From: Beroe forskalii
Lineage: Eukaryota; Ctenophora; Nuda; Beroida; Beroidae
Length of the DNA stretch: 64,000 nt
Direction of reading: 5' to 3'
Assembly (NCBI GenBank): GCA_011033025.1
Contig: WFMF01000258.1
Location: forward strand, 184,154-248,153
Part shown: piece by piece, positions 6,361-57,500 of the stretch
How the letters are laid out: the number at the start of each line of letters is the position of its first letter
How positions within the stretch are numbered: position 1 is the stretch's first letter
The notes under the pieces: generated by a model
The model's input: the letters and a program-made list of their open reading frames with translations, nothing else
Told to the model about the DNA's origin: nothing
Databases searched by the model: none
Program-made: the position numbers and the translations under genes

Positions 6361-6743
6361 CACAGCTTTGTAGATTGCAGCATGAGACGGCCACGGGAAA
6401 TTAATATGCGGCTTAGATGACGTCATTATCATGGCTTAAAGTGAGAAATTGTGTACGCTAATGTGCCTTATGGGATATAAAGCTATTGGTTGGCCAGGTG
6501 GGGAACCGATAGCGGTGTCATATATTGTATGTACCGATAGAGTTTAATTCATACTCAATGATTTCGATAGTTCTCACATCTTTCCGGCGATGTATGTATC
6601 GCTCTTTGTGGGCTTTCCGTTTTGTGTGCATCGGCGAATGTTTTTGAGGTTTCACTTTATTATTCTATTATTCCTTTAGATATCGAAATTTCGAACATTT
6701 TCACAAATATTTTTGTCAGCTTAATATAACAGGCTGCAAAACC
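6361..6743. repeat. 383-bp direct repeat, left copy
   Basis: Read by eye, base for base identical to 7838-8220, from CACAGCTTTGTAG to GGCTGCAAAACC. It flanks the palindromic core on the left. It contains ATGACGTCATTAT but no open frame of note. Confidence 0.95.
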
Positions 6744-7837
6744 ACTTGTGCAAAACCACTTGTGCAAACCGCCGATTCGGCGCCTATAGGCGCCGAATCG
6801 GCGCCTATAGGCGCCTATAAGTTTTTTTCGGCGCCGATTCGGCGCCTATAGGCGGTGCCGCTTTTCGGCGCCTATAGGCGCCTATAACTGACATTTTTCA
6901 TTTTTCGGCGGTCATCGGCGCCTATAGGCGCCGATAAGCGCCGATAAGCGCCTATGGACCGCCTATCGGCGCCGTCGGCGCTTTTCGACCGCTTATCGGC
7001 GCCTATATTTCGGCGCCTATAGGCGCCTGTAGGCGCCGATGCTGATTTTCTGTCCTCGGCTAAGATATTGATTTTCGGGAATATAACTTCTCTCCTCTTT
7101 TCGGCGCCTACAGGCGCCTATAGGCGCCGATGAATTAAAGTAGTCCTAAATTGGCCCGCAACATTGTTGCACAGTATGTCTTCCACATTTGGGTCAGGAT
7201 TAGGGCTAGGCTTGGGGTTGTTAGGGTTAGGGTTGGGTTAGAGTTAGGGTTAGGGTTAGGGTTGGGGTTAGGGTTAGGGTTAGGGTTAGGGTCAGGGTTA
7301 ACCCAAACCCTAACCCAAACCCTAACCCAAACCCTAACCCTAACCCTAACCCTAACCCCAAACCCTAACCTGACGAAAGCGAACGCCAATTTAGGACTGT
7401 TTTAATTCATCGGCGCCTATAGGCGCCTATAGGCGCCGAAAAAAAGGTGGAAGAACACAGATTGCTAGAAGGCAAAATCGGTGCCTATAGGCGCCGATAC
7501 TTAGGACATCGCCGGGGACGAAGAAACAGTATCGGCGCCTATAGGCGCCTATAGGCGGTTGATAACTAAGGCGCCGATAAGCGGTCGAAAAGCGCCGACG
7601 GCGCCGATAGGCGGTGCATAGGCGCTTATCGGCGCTTATCGGCGCCTATAGGCGCCGATGACCGCCGAAAAATTGGAAAATGTCAATTTTAGGCGCCTAT
7701 AGGCGCCTAAAAGCGGTACCGCCTATAGGCGCCGAATCGGCGCCGAAAAAAACTTATAGGCGCCTATAGGCGCCTATAGGCGCCGATTCGGCGCTGATCG
7801 GCGCCGAATCGGCGGTTTGCACAAATGGTAATGTGCC
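6744..7837. mobile_element. 1.1-kb palindrome with telomeric core
   Basis: A large imperfect palindrome. The arms are built from the self-complementary 16-mer GGCGCCTATAGGCGCC in many variants (about 6765-7130 and 7405-7825). The outer ends TTGTGCAAACCGCCGATTCG and the reverse complement near 7798-7826 match. The inner arms carry GTCCTAAATTGGC (7143-7155) and its complement near 7388-7400. No coding content. It could be a foldback element or an inverted duplication of a chromosome-end segment. Confidence 0.85.
7195..7371. repeat. head-to-head interstitial telomeric repeats
   Basis: (TTAGGG)n-like units run to about 7297 on the plus strand, then switch to (CCCTAA)n at the GGGTTAACCC junction near 7296-7305. 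This is the polarity expected from two chromosome ends joined together. Both halves are interrupted by GGGTTTGGG-type variants. Confidence 0.92.
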
Positions 7838-8220
7838 CACAGCTTTGTAGATTGCAGCATGAGACGGCCACGGGAAATTAATATGCGGCTTAGATGACGT
7901 CATTATCATGGCTTAAAGTGAGAAATTGTGTACGCTAATGTGCCTTATGGGATATAAAGCTATTGGTTGGCCAGGTGGGGAACCGATAGCGGTGTCATAT
8001 ATTGTATGTACCGATAGAGTTTAATTCATACTCAATGATTTCGATAGTTCTCACATCTTTCCGGCGATGTATGTATCGCTCTTTGTGGGCTTTCCGTTTT
8101 GTGTGCATCGGCGAATGTTTTTGAGGTTTCACTTTATTATTCTATTATTCCTTTAGATATCGAAATTTCGAACATTTTCACAAATATTTTTGTCAGCTTA
8201 ATATAACAGGCTGCAAAACC
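7838..8220. repeat. 383-bp direct repeat, right copy
   Basis: Appears identical in length and sequence to 6361-6743, in the same orientation. The flanking sequence differs on the outer side of each copy, so the pair marks a duplication or an insertion with long terminal repeats. Confidence 0.95.
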
Positions 8221-33767: not shown

Positions 33768-34353
33768 TGGTAGGACAAAACCCCACCCGGTCAAAACACC
33801 ACCCGGGCAAAACCCCACCCGGACATAACCCCACCTTAGAACTACAATATGCGCGCGAAGTACTGTGGTGAGCAGGGCGTAGTACTATTTAACGGTGTGT
33901 GCAAGCTCGCGCGACAGATGTATGACGAAAGATGTATGCGTGTTCCGTTTAGCTATATAGGTATTCTTAGATTTTAATCGTAATGTTATGTAATCAGTAA
34001 TGATTCTACTCCTTAGGATTCAAATGACTTAGTTTGACTAAGTGGGTTTCTTTGGAGCAAGGGGTGCTCAAAGATCTTCCCGGGCCCTCATTTGATGATT
34101 TCCGTATGAATTGCTCGTTTCACTTGTTAATATACCTGTTATCGATAATTAATCCCTATGGTTATGCATCACAGAAATAGGTATTTAAGCGCGCACGCAC
34201 GAACTAAAAGTAATACGCGTATCAATCAGTTGCACGACAGTACTTCGCGCGCATATTGTAGTTCTAAGGTGGGGTTATGTCCGGGTGGGGTTTTGCCCGG
34301 GTGGTGTTTTGTCCGGATGGGGTTTTGTCCGAGTGGGGTTCTGTCCGCGCACC
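33768..34353. mobile_element. long-inverted-repeat element with 10-bp target duplication
   Basis: 586 bp flanked by exact direct repeats CTGATCTTGA (33758-33767 and 34354-34363). The arms are about 95 bp and complementary: tandem CCCACCCGG(A/G)CAAAAC-type units, then a stretch ending GCGCGCGAAGTACTG, mirrored at 34239-34350. The centre (about 375 bp) has no coding content. Long inverted repeats plus a 9-10 bp duplication are typical of Mutator-like non-autonomous elements. Confidence 0.75.
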
Positions 34354-37624: not shown

Positions 37625-40122
37625 TTACACGTCCTTGCGTGCTATTACAGCGAAAGCAGCAGCAATGAGGAGGAGCAGGGACCCCACCACCAGGTACACA
37701 ATACCTATCATAACGTTCCTACCTCCGAATATGCTGAAATAATATCAACATTTATTACACACTTAGACAAAGGTATACGATACCTATCATAACGTTCCTA
37801 CCTCCGAATATGCTGAAATGATATCAACATTTATTACACGCTTAGACGAAGCAGGGGCGTAGCCAGGGGGAAGGCGACACAGGCGGTCGCCTCCCCAGGA
37901 AATGGACAGGAGGCCTACCGACAAGTGCGCACATAAGAATCTATTTCCCACGGTCTAACAGGGTGCCCTGTCAATGATTTGAGCTGAGTGAGCACATAAG
38001 ATGCTGAAAACGACAACTGCGCACATTGCAACACAGCCAAGTCAGAATCTGATCCAAACTCAAACAAACGACAAGTAGAAAGCCCTATGTTTCTAGTGGA
38101 GTCTGTGAGTGAACTTGAAGCGGACTTTGGCGCTAACTCTGAGTGCCCCACCATGCGCGCAGGCACAGTGCCCATGCGAGGTCATGATGGGTGCTTTGTC
38201 ATGCGAGGTCATGATGGGTTAGGTTACGTTCGGCTCACGTGATGCGGCTCATAGCTTCAGCGTATCATATAGAGCCTAGAGCCTAGAGCTGAATCCTAGA
38301 GCTGAATCCTAGAGCTGAATCATTGAATGTGCGCACTTGTCGTTTCAGATGCAGTCAATCTACTGATTGGGCTACTCCCTAAATTTTCCCACGCTACCCT
38401 GTCAATTATTGAGCTCCCATGTGCGCACTTGTCCGGCAGCCGGACAGGAAATGTGAAATATTTGTTAATTTTATTGTAATGAGAGCTTTGAGCCAAGCAA
38501 AATAAGGCATTCAAAAGGTTTTGAATGTAACTCGCCTCCTCCTTTTCAAAAATCTGGCTACGCCCCTGAGACAAAGGTACACGATACCTATCATAACGTT
38601 CCTTCCCCCGAAAATGCTGAAATAATAGGAGTAAATATCAACATTTATAACACGACTGAGGTGTATTATGTATAGTCAAATAAATACTTAGCAGAATAAA
38701 TAGGAAATATTTTAGCGTGACAATACCAATTTAATACCAATGAAATGTTAGATTATAATGCAAGAATGTATACTTTATCAAATTATTCTCAAAAAACACA
38801 ATAGTAAGTACAAGGAGTGCAGAATTCAATGGCAGAGTTTATGGCCATTATGAGACAGAGCATTAACCAGAGGAAACATGATGACATTTAGTAAGCATTA
38901 TAAGTCGTGTAAGTTACATTAAAGATGTAACATGATCTTAGCTGCGTACATTCCATTCGCGATGTCATCACTCTCAGTTTTAATGCAGTAGTGCATGTGC
39001 GAATTTTCATCAAATAAAGCAGTCTTAAAATCAAGTTTTTTCATGTATGATAAATTCATAGTTCCGTAGTAGATCAGATTATTTTAAATTTAATGCGTGC
39101 AGACTGCAGATCGCTCGATTACCGGAGGACTCGATTAAGATTAAAAATTGTGTGCTCTCGATAGAATCTATGCAGAAAGTTGACGCGCGAACAGTCAATC
39201 TTCGCGTCTTTATCGAACCTTCTGGACTCCGGTGATAGAGCCATCTGCACACATATTGTGTTAGGTATTTGATAACGGATGTTCATCAAATTACTAATCA
39301 AATGTATAGTAAAATACCTGGCAGTTCGTAGATGATTATGAAATACTAACATTACTGACATGATTTGATCAGATTACTTGAACTGTGATTTGTAGATGAA
39401 ATACTAAAATACCTGGTGATCACATAACTTGAACTGTGGTTGCTAGCTAAAATAACTGGAGTGTGAACGATAAGTTAAATTAAACTTGGCTGTTTTTAAT
39501 TGTTTTTTAATAAACTATTGAACAGGATTCTAGTGCTGAGATTACTAGTCTATGACCTAACATTTCTCCAGAAATAGATGACATCAAAGTTAATACAGGA
39601 AAAGCTGTTCTTCGAACTCTGCATGCAAAGACAATATCCAACGCTTTCACTTACTTTAAGACACCAGAAGTAAAGTCAAATATTTTACAAGGATCGTCTG
39701 CAGCTGGTATTGCTTATAAAAGCACTAAGCAGTGAAAAGAATACGTGATACTCAAAACATAAGGGATACTGAAGGCTTAGTGGACCCATTCTCTTGTCTC
39801 ACATTGAATAATTAATATCAAAATTTTTACTGAATTCATCAAACCGAATTTCTTTATTCTTGGTGGCTGATAAAATCGTCTAAATTTAATGTCGTATAAA
39901 TAATATCCGTATAAAATTCGTGACGTATAAATATTCTGTACTAAGGTATAAGTAGAATTAAATTTGGCGTGTTTTTTAATACCTGGTGGTTGAGAGAACG
40001 AAGAACTTCTTGCTCTGGTAGTAGAGGACTGGGTAGTTGTAGTCAATAGTCAGCCGGTACTTTCCCTCCTCCAGTCCCCCGTCAAGTTCCGGGTTCAGCG
40101 TCATGTCTATCCGCGAGTACAG
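37625..40122 (-). CDS. CDC50/TMEM30 family P4-ATPase subunit, 3' exons only
   Basis: CDC50 proteins are two-helix chaperone subunits of phospholipid flippases. Two exons: 40122-39983 (begins LYSRIDMTLNPELDGG, then GKYRLTIDYNYPV and FFVLSTT) and 37733-37625. The second reads IFGGRNVMIGIVYLVVGSLL, completes the second transmembrane helix and ends ARKDV-stop. These match the family's conserved end (extracellular NYPV, STTSW-GGKN-like turn, then TM2). The splice junction AG/C is in phase. A strong GTAAGT overlaps the stop codon, so a further downstream exon is possible. Exons for the N-terminal two thirds should lie above 40122, but only a minisatellite and unrelated DNA are seen to 46 kb. The gene is therefore truncated, misassembled or has a very large intron. 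Confidence 0.82.
37769..37845 (-). repeat. duplicate of CDC50 last-exon start, copy 2
   Basis: Repeats the acceptor and first 30 or so bases of the CDC50 last exon (complement of TATCATAACGTTCCTACCTC) plus its upstream intron, 72 bp away from the functional exon. A third, more diverged copy is at 38577-38650 beyond the hAT element. Confidence 0.85.
37852..38568. mobile_element. non-autonomous hAT element
   Basis: 717 bp with terminal inverted repeats CAGGGGCGTAGCCAG at both ends. The 8-bp target duplication is AGACGAAG (37844-37851) and AGACAAAG (38569-38576), one mismatch. Length of the duplication and the CAGGGGCG terminus are typical of hAT elements. It has no transposase frame. It separates copies 2 and 3 of the duplicated CDC50 exon start. 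Confidence 0.88.
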
Positions 40123-42780
40123 CTGAAATATCACACATTATAGTCACACAATATCACACAAAGTCATGTCTATCCGCGAGTACAGCTGAAATATCACACA
40201 TTATAGTCACACAATATCACACTAAGTCATGTCTATACGCGAGTAAAGCTGAAATATCACACATTATAGTCACACAATATCACACAAAGTCATGTCTATA
40301 CGCGAGTAGAGCTGAAATATCACACATTATAGTCACACAATATCACACAAAGTCATGTCTATACGCGAGTACAGCTGAAATATCACACATTATAGTCACA
40401 CAATATCACACAGAGTCATGTCTATACGCGAGTAGAGCTGAAATATCACACATTATAGTCACACAATATCACACAAAGTCATGTCTATACGCGAATACAA
40501 CTGAAATATCACACATTATAGTCACACAATATCACACAGAGTCATGTCTATACGTGAGTACAGCTGAAATATCACACATTATAGTCACACAATATCACAC
40601 AAAGTCATGTCTATCCGCGAGTACAGCTGAAATATCACACATTATAGTCACACAATATCACACTAAGTCATGTCTATACGCGAGTAAAGCTGAAATATCA
40701 CACATTATAGTCACACAATATCACACAAAGTCATGTCTATACGCGAGTAGAGCTGAAATATCACACATTATAGTCACACAATATCACACAAAGTCATGTC
40801 TATACGCGAGTACAGCTGAAATATCACACATTATAGTCACACAATATCACACAGAGTCATGTCTATACGCGAGTAGAGCTGAAATATCACACATTATAGT
40901 CACACAATATCACACAAAGTCATGTCTATACGCGAATACAACTGAAATATCACACATAAGTCACACAATATCACACAAAGTCATGTCTATCCGTGAGTAA
41001 AGCTGAAATATCACACATTATAGTCACACAATATCACACAGAGTCATGTTTATTCGTGAGTAGAGCTGAAATATCACACATTATAGTCACACAATATCAC
41101 ACAAAGTCATGTCTATACGCGAGTACAGCTGAAATATCACACATTAGTCACACAATATCACACAGAGTCATGTCTATACCCGAGTAGAGCTGAAATATCA
41201 CACATTAGTCACACACAATATCACACAGAGTCATGTCTATACGCGAGTACAGCTAAAATATCACACATTATAGTCACACAATATCACACAAAGTCATGTC
41301 TATACGCGAGTAGAGCTGAAATATCACACATTAGTCACACAATATCACACTAAGTCATGTCTATACGCGAGTAGAGCTGAAATATCACACATTAGTCACA
41401 CAATATCACACAAAGTCATGTCTATACGCGAGTAAAGCTGAAATATCACACAATATCACACAAAGTCATGTCTATACGCGAGTACAGCTGAAATATCACA
41501 CATTAGTCACACAATATCACACAAAGTCATGTCTATACGCGAGTAGAGCTGAAATATCACACATTAGTCACACAATATCACACAAAGTCATGTCTATACG
41601 CGAGTAGAGCTGAAATATCACACATTAGTCACACAATATCACACAAAGTCATGTCTATACGCGAGTAGAGCTGAAATATCACACATTAGTCACACAATAT
41701 CACACTAAGTCATGTCTATACGCGAGTAGAGCTGAAATATCACACATTATAGTCACACAATATCACACAGAGTCATGTTTATCCGCGAGTACAGCTGAAA
41801 TATCACACATTGGTCACACAATATCACACAAAGTCATGTCTATTAGCGAGTAGAGCTGAAATATCACACATTAATCAAACACAATATCACACATTAGTCA
41901 CACAATATCATGTCTATCCGCGAGTACAGCTGAAATATCACACATTAATCACACAATATCACACAAAGTCATGTCTATACGCGAGTAAAGCTGAAATATC
42001 ACACATTATAGTCACACAATATCACACAAAGTTATGTCTATACGCGAGTAAAGCTGAAATATCACACATAAGTCACACAATATCACACAAGGTCATGTCT
42101 ATACGCGACTACAGCTGAAATATCACACATTAGTCACACAATATCACACAAAGTCATGTCTATACGCGAGTAGAGCGGAAATATCACATTAATCACACAA
42201 TATCACACAAAGTCATGTCTATCCGCGAATACAGCTGAAATATCACACATTAGTCACACAAAGTCATGCCAATTCGCGAGTAGAGCGGAAATATCACACA
42301 TTAGTCACACGATATCACACAGAGTCATGTCTATACGCGAGTACAGCTGAAATCACACATTATAGTCACACAATATCACACGAAGTTATGTCTATACGCG
42401 AGTAGAGCTGAAATATCACACATTAGTCACACAATATCACACAAAGTCATGTCTATACGCGAGTAGAGCTGAAATATCACACATTAGTCACACAAAGTCA
42501 TGTCTATACGCGAGTAAAGCTGAAATATCACACATTAGTCACACAATATCACACAAAGTCATGTCTATACGCGAGTACAGCTGAAATATCACACATTATA
42601 GTCACACAATATCACACAGAGTAGAGCTGAAATATCACACATTAGTCACACAATATCACACATTAGTCACACAATATCACACAAAGTCATGTCTATACGC
42701 GAGTAAAGCTGAAATATCACACATTAGTCACACAATATCACACAAAGTCATGTCTATCCGCGAGTACAGCTGAAATATCA
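40123..42780 (-). repeat. 60/63-bp minisatellite made from a CDC50 splice acceptor
   Basis: About 43 tandem units of 60-63 bp. On the minus strand each unit carries TTTCAG followed by a variant of CTGTACTCGCGGATAGACAT, which is the 3' splice site and first codons of the CDC50 exon at 40122-39983. The true exon is the last unit of the array. Variant order (ccgcgagtaca, acgcgagtaaa, acgcgagtaga and so on) repeats with a 441-bp (7-unit) higher-order period between about 40165 and 40935. Confidence 0.95.
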
Positions 42781-51784: not shown

Positions 51785-54700
51785 ATGATAAGCAGTGAAG
51801 GGGCCCTACAGCAGACAGTTGACTCCAATAAACAGATCCTGGTGTTACACTTTACTGCAACTTGGTCAGAGCCCTGTAAAACCATAACAGCTTCATTGCA
51901 AGCCCTGTCCCAGAAATACCAAGCTCTTCAGGTCTTCCAGGTTTGTAATATTTAATCGTAATTTAAGTACTACTTTCTTGACCTTCTTTAGTACTTTCTT
52001 TACCTTCTTTAGTACTTATTGCTGCCTTCTTGTTGCTGTTGGTGTGAAACGCCCTGAGTTGTTTTTATTTGTGGGTACTTTGTTATAAGTTAGAACTTAG
52101 GATTTTTAAACGAATCTGGTAAAATAATTGTTTCTTATCATTTACAGTGGATATATCAAAATCACATAGAGACATCAGATTTCGTATGATTGATATCTAA
52201 TACTTCAATATCACTCATTCTTCCAGGTAGATACAGAGAAGGTATCTAAGTTCTGCGAAGCGCACGACATTGAATCAGTTCCGACTTGCCTAATCTACCA
52301 CAAAAACCAACTACAGGTAACGTAAATCATCTGCATAAGTTGTCACTTGTCAGTCCTTCGTTACATCAGAAAATAAAGATCGTGGTTAAACGATTAGAGA
52401 TTGCCACTTTGTGACCAAATGACAGTATTGAGATTGAGTCAGCGGACGGCGCGACGACTTTTTCATTTTTAGTCAGTCGCTGCACACCACTATATTTTGC
52501 GCGCATTGTGGATTATGACTAACAACTGGACCGTACATACGCGCGCGGTACGTGCGTACCGTGCACCAACCGATCGGTTGTAGGTCGGTTAAGCTAAGCT
52601 TATAACGTGGCAAGACTGTCGCTTGCCTGACTGAAACAACAAACCGTCTGTTTTCCCGATCAATGTCACACAGATAGGTAGGGTGTAGGTAAATAGTGCA
52701 CATTAAAATCCACATTGTGGAATGTGCAAATGTTGCTATTCTTCATGCTTGATTTGATGTTGATTGGTGTCAACGTCATAGAGTCGGTATGTGTGCGTAA
52801 CTTCATTCGTCATGCTTAATTGGGTCCCGAGTGGTGTCAACGTCATAAAGTTGGTATGTGGAATGTGCATACGTCGCCGTTCGTCATAGATGACTGAGTG
52901 GTGTCAGGCATGTGCTGCAGCTCTGGTCATTAGTTTTCATTTTCTTGTTCGAGTTGTTTTGCTTAATTGTTGTTAATAATGTTGTTAAAAATGTTGTAAG
53001 TAATGTTAGTAATAATCGTTGTTAATAAGGTACCGTTGTAAATAAGGTACAGTTGTTAATAAGTTACCGTTGTTGATAAGGTACCGTTGTTGATAAGGTA
53101 CCGTTGTTGATAAGGTACCGTTGTTGATAAGGTACCGTTGTTGATAAGGTACCGTTGTTGATAAGGTACCGTTGTTGATAAGGTACCGTTGTTAACAAGG
53201 TACCGTTGTTGATAAGGTACCGTTGTTAACAAGGTACCGTTGTTAACAAGGTGCCGTTGTTAACAAGGTGCCGTTGTTAATAAGGTATTGTTGTTAATAA
53301 GGTATCGTTGTTAATAAGGTATCGTTGTCAATAAGGTATCGTAGCTAATAAGGTAGCGTTGTTAATAAGGTAGCGTTGTTAATACGGTACCATTGTTAAT
53401 GAGGTATCGTTAATAAGGCACCGTTGTTAATATCGCGCGATAATAGTTTATCATCGATGCTTGATTTGATGTTGATTGGTGTCAACGTCATAGAGTCGGT
53501 ATGTGTACGTAACTTCATTCGTCAAAGACAAGATCACGTGGGAGCATTACCTTGACCATGCCCGCAATTTTGAGGACAGGAAATTTACTGCAAGGATCCG
53601 CTGTAGTGCTCACAAACTCAATATTGAAACTGGTAGGCACAAAAACATTCCTAAAGCAGAAAGGACCTGTGACTTCTGCTCTTCAAAAGGAATCGACATC
53701 TCAGCCATTGAAGACGAAGAACACATCCTTGCCAATTGTCCGCTAGCAGCATCACAAAGGCAAAAGATGGCTTCATTGATCAACAGTCTTGACATCAACC
53801 ATGGTGATACTCCTCTCAATGGCATTCAGATAGCCAGGACAACTCCAACAGATCCTGCTGAATCAAACAATGATGCACTTGTGAGACATATTCAAATCAC
53901 GACCAGGGCAATCAAAATTATGTACAAGAGCATTCTAAAGTACAAAAAGGAACTGTCTCAACAAGGTGAAAGCTTATCTTAGATCTCCTGTGGTTCCACC
54001 TTCAATCTCTCTCTCCTCAGTCTTTCCCTCCTTCCGCTTCCTGCTCTTTGTTTGTCCAGCCTTGTCTGCTCTTTTCATCTTCTGAGTCCGCATCTCTTAG
54101 GGCCTGGGTGTTGTCTAAGTGTCCCACTCAGTTTGGATCCCAGATGGCTGAGTGGAAAATAGGGGGTGTTTCCGACTTGCGCTGGTAGTGATCCAGCCAC
54201 CTGCTACATATGTGTGGGAAGCGGGTGCCCCTCCGATGCTCACCTGGCTGCGTACCGATTTGGGCTTAACTGTGTCCCATGCGTGGGGCATGCGTAGGCC
54301 GGGGGGACAACATCAACCCTATCCATTTCTTCTTTTCTCATTCTCCTTCTCCAGGTCTTCGTGAGTTCTTGTTGCTTTGCTCCTCCTGCACCATCACTCC
54401 TGTTACATCAGCTCTCATCAGTTCTTATTTCTCTTCAGCATCTCTGTTGGCTCTTTGGTACGTGCCCGCTCTATGGTCCCCAATCTCACCTAGATCCTTC
54501 AAGTATTTCAAATTGTGAACCCCTTTTTGTATCCTTTTTTCTTCCTCGAATCAGTACATTGATGACTCCGCATCAAATTAATTCCATCACCATAACACAT
54601 CACCAAATCACCAAATCACAATATCATCTCCGTTTAACATAAGCTACTGACTTGTGTGTGATTTGAATGACATTGCTTTTGTCACAAATTATATTTTAAA

Positions 54701-57500
54701 ATTCTTGTAAATTCTTGTAAAAAATTCTTGCTTGATTGGGTCCCGAGTGGTGTCAACGTCATAAAGTTGGTATGTGGAATGTGCATACGTCGCCGTTCGT
54801 CATAGATGACTGAGTGGTGTCAGCCAACATATAAAAAGGCATGTGCTGCAGCTCTGGTCATTAGTTTTCATTTTCTTGTTCGAGTTGTTTTGCTTAATTG
54901 TTGTTAAAAATGTTGTAAGTAATGTTGTTAATAATCGTTGTTAATAAGGTACCGTTGTAAATAAGGTACAGTTGTTAAAAAGGTACCGTTGTAAATAAGG
55001 TACCGTTGTTGATAAGGTACCGTTGTTGATAAGGTACCGTTGTTGATAAGGTACCGTTGTTAACAAGGTACCGTTGTTGATAAGGTACCGTTGTTAACAA
55101 GGTACCGTTGTTAACAAGGTACCGTTGTTAACAAGGTACCGTTGTTAACAAGGTGCCGTTGTTAACAAGGTGCCGTTGTTAATAAGGTATTGTTGTTAAT
55201 AAGGTATCGTTGTTAATAAGGTATCGTTGTTAATAAGGTATCGTAGCTAATAAGGTAGCGTTGTTAATAAGGTAGCGTTGTTAATAAGGTAGCGTTGTTA
55301 ATACGGTACCATTGTTAATGAGGTATCGTTAATAAGGCACCGTTGTTAATATCGCGCGATAATAGTTAATCATCGATAATCGTTTTGTTCAATTTTAAAA
55401 TCCAGAGATTATCCACCGTTCTTGCATGCGAGGAATTTTCATCACCGAAATACCCCCAAATTTCGCTCGTACATTATCTGGGTCCTATATGTTTCCCAGA
55501 CCAATAATTATGTCTCTTACCAGGAAACGATTGGTGGTTTGAACGTCCCTAAGATAGCTAAAACAGTCGATAAACTGGTATCAGAATGCGATGCTTCAGA
55601 ACCTCAGAAACCAGTTGAAGATATCAATACGAGATGTGAACGTCTCACCAAGATGGCGAAATGTGTTGTGTTCATCAAGGGCACGCCACAGGTATTGTGG
55701 GAAGTCGGGGGCGTTAATCTTTCAGAGTTTATCTAGCACAAATTACTATATAAGTAGAATACCAGTGCAAGGTAGCAGTCCTCTGACCGCCCCTCGAAAT
55801 GATATTCCCAAATTGTAAATTGTTTACACGGACGTTTACATGCATTTCGTACACTGGAATATCCTTTAGAATACACATTTTGCAGGCCCCAAAGTGCAAG
55901 TTCACGCGCGCTATGATGGAGTTGTTCTCCAGCAGAAACATAGAGTTCTCCTACTTTGATATACTGTCAGATAGTGAAGTGCGGGAAGGCTTGAAGAAGT
56001 TCGGGGAATGGCCTACCTATCCTCAGGTATTGAAAAGCGGACACTTACCCATTATAAAAACTTTCTGATAAAGTCTGACTTTTGCTATAATTTGCGGAAA
56101 ATGAGAAGCAGCTTTTAATTCGTCGCTAAAATAACACAGTTCACTTATTTCTGGAATTCCAATGAAACTCATACCCTCTCATTTTAAAAAGCTCAGAGAC
56201 ATGGGTTGTCGAATCCCTGCAACTTTCTCCTGTGTTTTGTACACTAAGATACCCTACCTATCCTCAGGTTTGGCACGAGGGTGAGCTGATGGGAGGTCTG
56301 GACATCATTAAGGAGATGGAGGAGACTGGAGAACTCATTACCACCCTCCCCGTGAAGATAACTCTGGAGACACGCCTCAAAAACCTCATTAACTCTCACA
56401 AGGTATACTTTGCTTATTAGTAATGCGCCCGTTACGTCATCCTTTCGCGCGCGGAACTGCTTGGTGACGTCACATGGCTGGAAGATTACTATCACGCGAA
56501 GTAAAAAGCATATTTCTCAGACAGGAAATGGCAGATCTATTCGTACAAGTGTTAACTTTTCCCCTATTTTCTGGGTTTTCTGCTGCATTTCCTGCCTTTC
56601 CTTGTGCGAGTAAGCCAAGATCCCCCCTAAACGCTGGTAATTTCAGATCATGCTGTTTATGAAGGGGAATGCCTCAGAACCGCGCTGTGGCTTCAGCAAA
56701 ACAACAGTTGCTCTGCTGTCAGAGTACACCACGGACTTCGGCACCTTCGACATCTTGTCCGACAATGAGGTTTGTAGATTTTATTTCTTGAATGGAAATT
56801 GAATGCTAGTTTGCAGTATAGGTTGACTTATTTCGATTGAAAATGTCGATAATAAACATAAATCCAGTCGTTTAATTTCTGTAAGGGAAACATGTCCCTA
56901 CCTATCTTCAGGAATAATAAGAATGACATGGTCAATCAAACTGTTAAATACCGTTCTATAAAACATTTAACCGCGTTGTCAATTATATGTTGAAACATCT
57001 GTTTTACCTGCTCTTTCATCATATCGGTAGCAAAACACCGGTTTTTTCTTTTGGTTGCTGGTTGTTTTTGATGAATTGAATGATTAGTGGACACCAATAT
57101 CACTCAACAGTCAAAAGCTGAACGTCAAAAAGGTAGTGAAAAGAACCAAGTTTGGTCTCAAGGCCATTATCACGTTTCCATCTCTGTTTCCGTGAAGGGG
57201 GACTGGAAGCCTAATCTTTTTCACTCTCATTCAGACCAGGCAAACAATGCATCTCTTGGATAGAACCCCACTAAACCAACTAATTGCTGCAGGTGAGAGA
57301 GGGACTAAAACCTAACTTCCATCTCATTGCGCTTGGTGTTGTTACGCTTCCACTAATTGTTTCAGGTGAGGGAGGGACTGAAAGTCTACTCGGAATGGCC
57401 CACCTACCCCCAACTATACGTAGACGGTGAGCTAATCGGGGGACTGGACATCCTTAAGGAAATGCAGGAGTCAGGTGAACTCGGGGACATCTTGAAGTGA
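51785..57500 (+). CDS. GLRX3: glutaredoxin-3 (PICOT), monothiol multidomain glutaredoxin
   Basis: Cytosolic iron-sulfur/iron-trafficking monothiol glutaredoxin. Exons: 51785-51940, 52227-52316, 55524-55691, 55886-56026, 56268-56402, 56647-56769 and 57366-57500; all introns are phase 0. The product has 315 residues (human about 335). Domain order is thioredoxin-like ([10 protein letters not shown], Cys 31, the PICOT-type variant of WCxxC), then Grx1 (about 120-220) and Grx2 (about 225-315). Each Grx has the WPTYPQ turn and GGLDI block. Grx2 has the canonical CGFS (Cys 244). Grx1 has CKFT at 142-145, an unusual replacement that keeps the cysteine. The N-terminus is a little short, so a small upstream exon is possible (CCATAG precedes this one). 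AATAAA follows the stop at about 57506. Intron 2 (3.2 kb) holds a segmental duplication. Confidence 0.95.
52745..53455. repeat. segmental tandem duplication, unit A
   Basis: About 710 bp starting GCTTGATTTGATGTTGATTG and ending in GCGCGATAATAGTTTATCAT. It is followed by unit B (53456-55375), which repeats the same order but is split by a LINE fragment. Both lie in GLRX3 intron 2. Confidence 0.9.
53020..53430. repeat. 17-bp minisatellite, array A
   Basis: Unit GATAAGGTACCGTTGTT, about 23 copies, with ordered variants (GTACC, GTGCC, GTATC, GTAGC) from left to right. The same variant order is found in array B at 54935-55345. Confidence 0.95.
53456..55375. repeat. segmental tandem duplication, unit B (interrupted)
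   Basis: Repeats unit A: GCTTGATTTGATGTTGATTG at 53458, then after a LINE insert GATTGGGTCCCGAGTGGTGT at 54733, the 17-bp minisatellite (54935-55345) and GCGCGATAATAGTTAATCAT. A short segment CAACATATAAAAAGG (about 54824) is present in B but not in A. Confidence 0.9.
53523..54728 (+). mobile_element. truncated LINE, 3' end
   Basis: An open frame (read to a stop at 53980-53982) starts in the insert. It has the C-terminal zinc-finger layout of non-LTR retrotransposon ORF2 proteins: CDFC, then [11 protein letters not shown] (C-x2-C...H-x-C type), preceded by [18 protein letters not shown]. About 750 bp of 3' untranslated sequence follows and ends in AAATTCTTGT repeats. It interrupts unit B where unit A reads CATTCGTCATGCTTAATTGG. 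Reverse transcriptase is absent, so it is dead on arrival. Confidence 0.8.

Follow-up and report, generated by a model that had tools for sequence, protein, structure and literature searches.

Analysis of 64,000 nucleotides of the Beroe forskalii genome (hereafter the window, C312:184154-248153, from an assembly of 216 Mb in 1134 contigs) showed that the palindrome at the locus described here is one copy of a dispersed non-coding foldback DNA transposon family. The 383-bp direct repeats that enclose it appear to be no part of the element and to have arisen when ordinary host DNA was recently duplicated in place. Judged from the sequence, the locus was probably shaped by two superimposed events, the insertion of the foldback element and then a microhomology join of a filled and an empty chromosome, which would have left the 383-bp tandem duplication. 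The features of the locus are given in Table 1.

Table 1. Positions of the element, its parts and the duplicated host DNA in the window.
Feature	Position	Strand	Description
Left copy of host duplication	6361..6743	+	383/383 identity with the right copy, no extension; two full copies genome-wide
Hybrid junction	6735..6768	+	2.4 copies of a 14-bp unit, TGCAAAACC (host) followed by ACTTG (element), joined via ACC; 100% match in Tandem Repeats Finder
Foldback element	6744..7837	.	truncated on the left, where GGCACATTACC is lacking; intact right tip at 7814-7837; from tip scan and two-tipped relatives
Left arm, partly tandem GGCGCCTATA units	6760..7138	+	limits approximate
Core	7139..7403	.	spacer AGTCCTAAATTGGC, a TTAGGG-like and a CCCTAA/CCCAAA-like array head to head, spacer again; limits approximate
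Right arm with intact terminal inverted repeat GGCACATTACCATTTGTGCAAACC (minus-strand reading)	7404..7837	-	from repeat and tip scans
Right copy of host duplication	7838..8220	+	starts with presumed 8-bp target duplication CACAGCTT; 8-bp rule from tip pairs

The 1.1-kb palindrome reported in the preliminary description was borne out by an alignment of its two halves, which were identical at 424 of 503 positions (84%), the controls, 40 stretches from elsewhere in the window and 20 shuffles, reaching no more than 0.487 and 0.480 respectively. Its longest outer inverted blocks measure 105 nt at 99% and 109 nt at 94% identity, and both these long inverted terminal repeats and the 10-bp periodic tandem units within the arms are traits of foldback elements. 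The description of the arms as built almost wholly of a self-complementary 16-mer and its variants goes too far: 13 exact copies of the 16-mer were found inside the element and 0 elsewhere in the window, but even with up to four substitutions it covers just 54% and 53% of the two arms. In the core a GGGTTA array (7191-7300) meets a TAACCC array (7299-7370) head to head, the (TTAGGG)n to (CCCTAA)n polarity being as reported. The term telomere-cored should be used with caution, since TTTGGG, TTGGGG and other variants make up many of the units and one half-array differs from the other; the core is called telomere-like here. A single strand of the palindrome folds at -543 kcal/mol with DNA parameters, a value without shuffle control. 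Coding capacity is absent in the window copy of the element, and no structured RNA was detected at gathering thresholds in the window and loci L007-L012.

Genome-wide the 16-mer has 911 occurrences, every one of which reads on both strands. With the palindrome as query at least 253 alignments were obtained genome-wide (40 of 743 first-look candidates scored), a number larger than that of the elements since palindromes match on both strands and give several alignments per element. The closest other copy among those scored was 93% identical over query positions 16-1101, and many others were bounded on both sides by GGCACATTACCACTTGTGCAAACCGCC or a close variant. The terminal tip GGCACATTACCACTTGTGCAAACC was matched 131 times (64 + 67) with at most two mismatches, the reversed control pattern 0 times, and dispersed copies with fixed ends (short tip form GGCACATTACCAC), as known from foldback elements, were hence at hand. 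The fetched loci held 32 tip pairs, 26 of them simple with no further tip inside. In these simple pairs an 8-bp target duplication was perfect in 21, had one mismatch in three and was non-matching in two, and 0 of the 26 were perfect at 7 or 9 bp. The six pairs enclosing another tip were set aside, two having one mismatch over 8 bp and four being non-matching. The family has in this way a target duplication of fixed length, which the window copy cannot show because its left tip is truncated. Tips and 8-bp duplications of this kind mark a family of cut-and-paste DNA transposons, in this case one with a foldback structure, and the multiple copies, the ends of their own and the target duplications together with an inherited telomere-like core (see below) sustain that part of the preliminary description in which a foldback element with captured telomeric DNA was considered.

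Perfect 8-bp duplications were also read by eye at L077 and at two large foldback elements containing LINE fragments (RVT_1, RNase_H), L073 216-7213 (6998 bp) and L074 183-4699 (4517 bp). No transposase was found in these two large elements among the 10 frames scanned of 23 listed. At L025 1501-2708 and L066 1501-2702 the one-mismatch 8-bp duplications of the tip pairs consist themselves of GGCGCC-type sequence, which suggests that foldback elements are nested there in the arms of other copies. Loci L064 and L079 bear a tip with no arrays near it, and a second tip was not found there or in their continuations L076 and L080. Tips lacking the usual following G occur at three places, two of which are array elements already in the set and the third on C814. 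Genomic matches to transposase families numbered 35 for PF12762 (Merlin, IS1595-type), 46 for PF10551 (Mutator, MULE) and 23 for PF05699 (hAT); the sole PF12762 locus fetched, L082, resembled the tip weakly and on one side only, and a tip pair was absent. The 8-bp target duplication of the family fits hAT, whereas CAGNG is the usual form of a hAT tip and the tip here is GGCAC. The window itself holds a smaller foldback-like structure at 33773-34330, with 98-nt inverted arms that are 97% complementary, lie 362 nt apart and contain 16-bp GGACAAAACCCCACCC repeats.

The identity of the two flanks claimed in the preliminary description is complete, with exact ends and 0 bp of extension beyond the match on each side. 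As CACAGCTT runs unbroken at 6361-6368, where it forms the first 8 bp of the left copy and the target expected of an empty site, while the intact right tip of the element abuts CACAGCTT at 7838, the left copy reads as the empty site and the right copy as the DNA beyond the filled site. With 0 differences in 383 bp the divergence is below about 0.8% (rule of three), and the duplication event is for this reason recent, unless conversion homogenised the two copies.

At the left end of the element the terminal 11 bp are lacking, and the tip scan of the window found the right tip only. Host sequence ending in TGCAAAACC is joined to element sequence starting with ACTTGTGCAAACCG, ACC being common to both, and the repeated 14-bp unit TGCAAAACCACTTG takes 9 bp from the host and 5 bp from the element. 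This unit was absent elsewhere among the fetched loci, being present just in records of the window locus, and no other match to the 19-nt junction string with at most one mismatch was found in the assembly. Since the unit itself spans the host-element junction it must have been repeated during or after the joining. Repeated junction units are what microhomology-mediated joining yields when the template slips or an insertion is templated; slippage at a later time, independent of the joining, could also have made the 14-bp repeat.

In the proposed course of events, a transposase acting in trans would have inserted the element at an 8-bp staggered cut, here in CACAGCTT, and a double-strand break would later have arisen at the left tip, either when an excision aborted or when an extruded hairpin was cleaved. 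The broken end would then have lost its 11 terminal bases and, with ACC as a 3-bp microhomology, been joined to a homologue or sister that lacked the element and was broken 383 bp downstream, with a slippage or templated-insertion step of polymerase-theta-type end joining repeating the 14-bp junction unit. The product would have the order empty site, 383 bp, element, 383 bp. Involvement of polymerase theta is suggested by the shape of a single junction, which has the 3-bp microhomology, the small end loss and the repeated junction sequence in common with joining of that type.

An assembly or library chimera, in which the empty haplotype was run into the filled one and the real locus is one 383-bp segment with the element on one allele, is the alternative that survives best, and we regard it as unlikely; the preliminary description had already named an assembly duplication at a hairpin among its readings. 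It would account for a left copy exactly like an empty allele, a right copy like a filled allele, a flank identity of 100% and the absence of a second-haplotype copy of the flank from the assembly, and the locus is a 1.1-kb hairpin, long hairpins being a hazard for sequencing. The join shares, however, just 3 bp with no long overlap, and a simple overlap error makes neither an 11-bp tip loss nor a repeated 14-bp hybrid unit nor a unique 19-nt string; the hybrid repeat is hard to obtain from plain assembly overlap.

Ranking behind the chimera, and likewise unlikely, is a tandem duplication made by the transposase itself, through alternative (reversed-ends) or hybrid-element transposition between sister chromatids. 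The dhAT duplications of maize seem the nearest parallel found to the window junction: in the part of that report drawn on here they are short tandem duplications that have kept the original target duplication at just one end, and one of them, dhAT-Zm13, provides the precedent of an element with a 12-bp deletion of its 5′ TIR (PMC3744419). The window locus resembles dhAT-Zm1 and dhAT-Zm13, and maize Ac/Ds and dhAT in general as far as covered by that part, in a short tandem duplication that starts at and is bounded by the element, and in the one-sided target duplication, it shares a tip loss with dhAT-Zm13, and the 8-bp target duplication fits as well. A transposase, however, joins intact tips and a clean join would keep the tip, whereas no intact tip lies at this duplication junction, GGCACATTACC being missing on the left and microhomology and a repeat being found at the join. 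Furthermore dhAT-Zm1 and dhAT-Zm13 retain the first element before the first copy, but the window locus has a single element and none at 6361, where the left site is empty and free of a footprint. If the tip was trimmed afterwards, a duplication made by the transposase could look similar, and the two events could then be one.

In the third alternative the 383-bp direct repeats would be the ends of a novel class of element, or else a target duplication of that length made on insertion. It matches the final structure of direct repeat, palindrome and direct repeat, and is very unlikely. The flank has just two full-length copies in the assembly, both at this locus, as the search for other copies advised in the preliminary description revealed, and the six further genomic matches to it each cover only 35-52 query positions. 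A terminal direct repeat recurring with other copies of the element, as in LTR-type elements, was not found. Of another 21 locus records, some of which overlap, none showed near-identical direct flanks among its six longest repeats, with flanks of up to 1.5 kb included. L029 alone among these had a direct repeat pair on both sides, just 78-80% identical and derived from a local tandem array. The perfect 8-bp duplications of the 21 simple tip pairs speak against it too. Long terminal direct repeats as a part of the element were consequently rejected, and with them the term terminal-repeat used in the preliminary description; with no other full genomic copy and no near-identical direct flanks at other loci, the flanks are better read as duplicated host DNA. 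A GATGACGTCATTATCATGGCTTAAAGTG motif lies within the flank at 6403-6452 (and 7880-7929), is partly common to six other places, and its region resembles by eye a decayed short palindromic element.

Insertion exactly at the edge of an older 383-bp tandem duplication is highly improbable. A subsequent 19-bp deletion between two ACC trinucleotides, removing the 8-bp target copy and 11 bp of tip, would give the observed join, but a coincidental insertion at the exact boundary is needed and the 14-bp repeat is left unexplained.

G-rich units precede C-rich units in 29 of 30 elements, the window copy included; the exception, L073, is without such a core, and L067 has just a single unit of the G strand. 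Similarity to the window palindrome is what brought in most of the 30, which favours finding the same core, and among the 11 brought in by their tips alone 10 have a core with the shared polarity, L073 again being the exception. L078, which lies outside the 30-element set, has a decayed right tip, a target duplication GACAGAAC and the same order of G-rich before C-rich units. The spacer AGTCCTAAATTGGC flanks the core on both sides in 28 of 30 elements. Of these 30 elements, 23 have the 12-mer TTAGGGTTTGGG in a single half only, six have it in both halves and one lacks it, and because of this confinement the two core halves appear to be mostly different arrays that are passed on together. These 12-mer and spacer counts were used alone, as a motif test for type 1 and type 2 half-cores was too permissive and separated nothing.

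When arms were compared between elements, leaving out L019, L025, L027, L066, L073 and L074 as nested or composite, the partner arm of the same element was the nearest neighbour for 0 of 48 arms (24 elements). The mean arm distance was 0.099 within elements and 0.086 between them, and 1977 of 2000 random re-pairings were as low or lower. A recent fold-back duplication making each palindrome afresh was rejected, own arms being no closer than arms elsewhere, and since own arms are never nearest neighbours each copy seems to have inherited a ready-made palindrome instead of having it remade at its site. Owing to the polarity common to 29 of 30 elements, the head-to-head core is best viewed as an inherited part of the family and not as a fusion at the window locus. 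The healed breakage-fusion event entertained in the preliminary description, by which two telomeres would have been put head to head at this very locus, agrees with the core polarity but is hardly credible given that this polarity is so widely shared, that the spacer stands on both sides in 28 of 30 elements and that the target duplications are ordinary. As an account of how the ancestral element arose, breakage-fusion could still apply.

FB-type foldback transposons include TU of sea urchin. The present family is like FB of Drosophila, TU and Tetris, within the parts of the sources drawn on, in its subrepeat-bearing long inverted arms, its variable middle, its lack of coding sequence, its rearranged or composite copies and an autonomous partner that was not found. 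Tetris of D. virilis is described, in the section of its report used here, as a foldback with long arms holding tandem subrepeats, target duplications of 8-10 bp and no known autonomous partner, and Mutator is suggested for it by its authors (PMC4079207). The 8-bp target duplications here lie within that range. The family differs, as judged from the same sections, in an arm unit that is self-complementary and of 10 bp (GGCGCCTATA) as against about 220 bp, and in a middle that is a head-to-head telomere-like array; its tip is GGCACATTACC..., the tips of FB and Tetris lying outside the comparison. Rotifer terminons share with it the carriage of telomeric repeats by a mobile element, but are, in the part of the account used, coding retroelements at chromosome ends, whereas the copy here is a non-coding inverted repeat in a contig interior (PMC6431247). 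No description of a foldback element with a telomere-like core was found in the titles or abstract openings listed by searches of an open-access library. The family-level explanation is good, with the telomere-like core as a variation on a known kind of foldback; it is the duplication junction that is unusual and fresh.

A transposon family of this kind carries telomere-like repeats into contig interiors. Head-to-head interstitial telomeric sequence is often read as the scar of a chromosome fusion, and here, where such repeats are transposon cargo, the locus stands as a warning against that reading. Among the matches listed for a perfect (TTAGGG)8 (100 of 272 places), four of five contigs have matches in foldback sequence. 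The sole non-foldback contig among these same listed matches carries a cluster of perfect TTAGGG arrays at C492:397640-408769 (~0.4 Mb). With the 383-bp duplication a long palindrome offers a fresh junction, useful for studying how such sites break and how they are repaired. A functional core, bound by telomere proteins or maintained through a telomerase-like lengthening of hairpin intermediates, might seed interstitial telomeric sites genome-wide, with hairpin breaks giving local tandem duplications of which the window locus would be a fresh example, and this wider proposal we hold to be rather doubtful.

Other repeats in the window include long tandem arrays at 1-1127 and 40100-42780, with a 9-bp unit (CTTAACTTA) and a 63-bp unit, and a 650-bp direct repeat (52810-53458 and 54726-55377) that is 92% identical and contains 17-bp minisatellites (CGTTGTTAATAAGGTAC). 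The ~1.3 kb between the 650-bp repeats has an open frame of 162 aa, with no Pfam match at E 0.01. Frames of the window match the Galactosyl_T, YHYH, cyclophilin and GNL3L/Grn1 families. Elsewhere in the assembly, L075 (C1134:40-1344) holds at the very start of its contig a COX1 that by eye looks divergent, with four TGA codons in frame.
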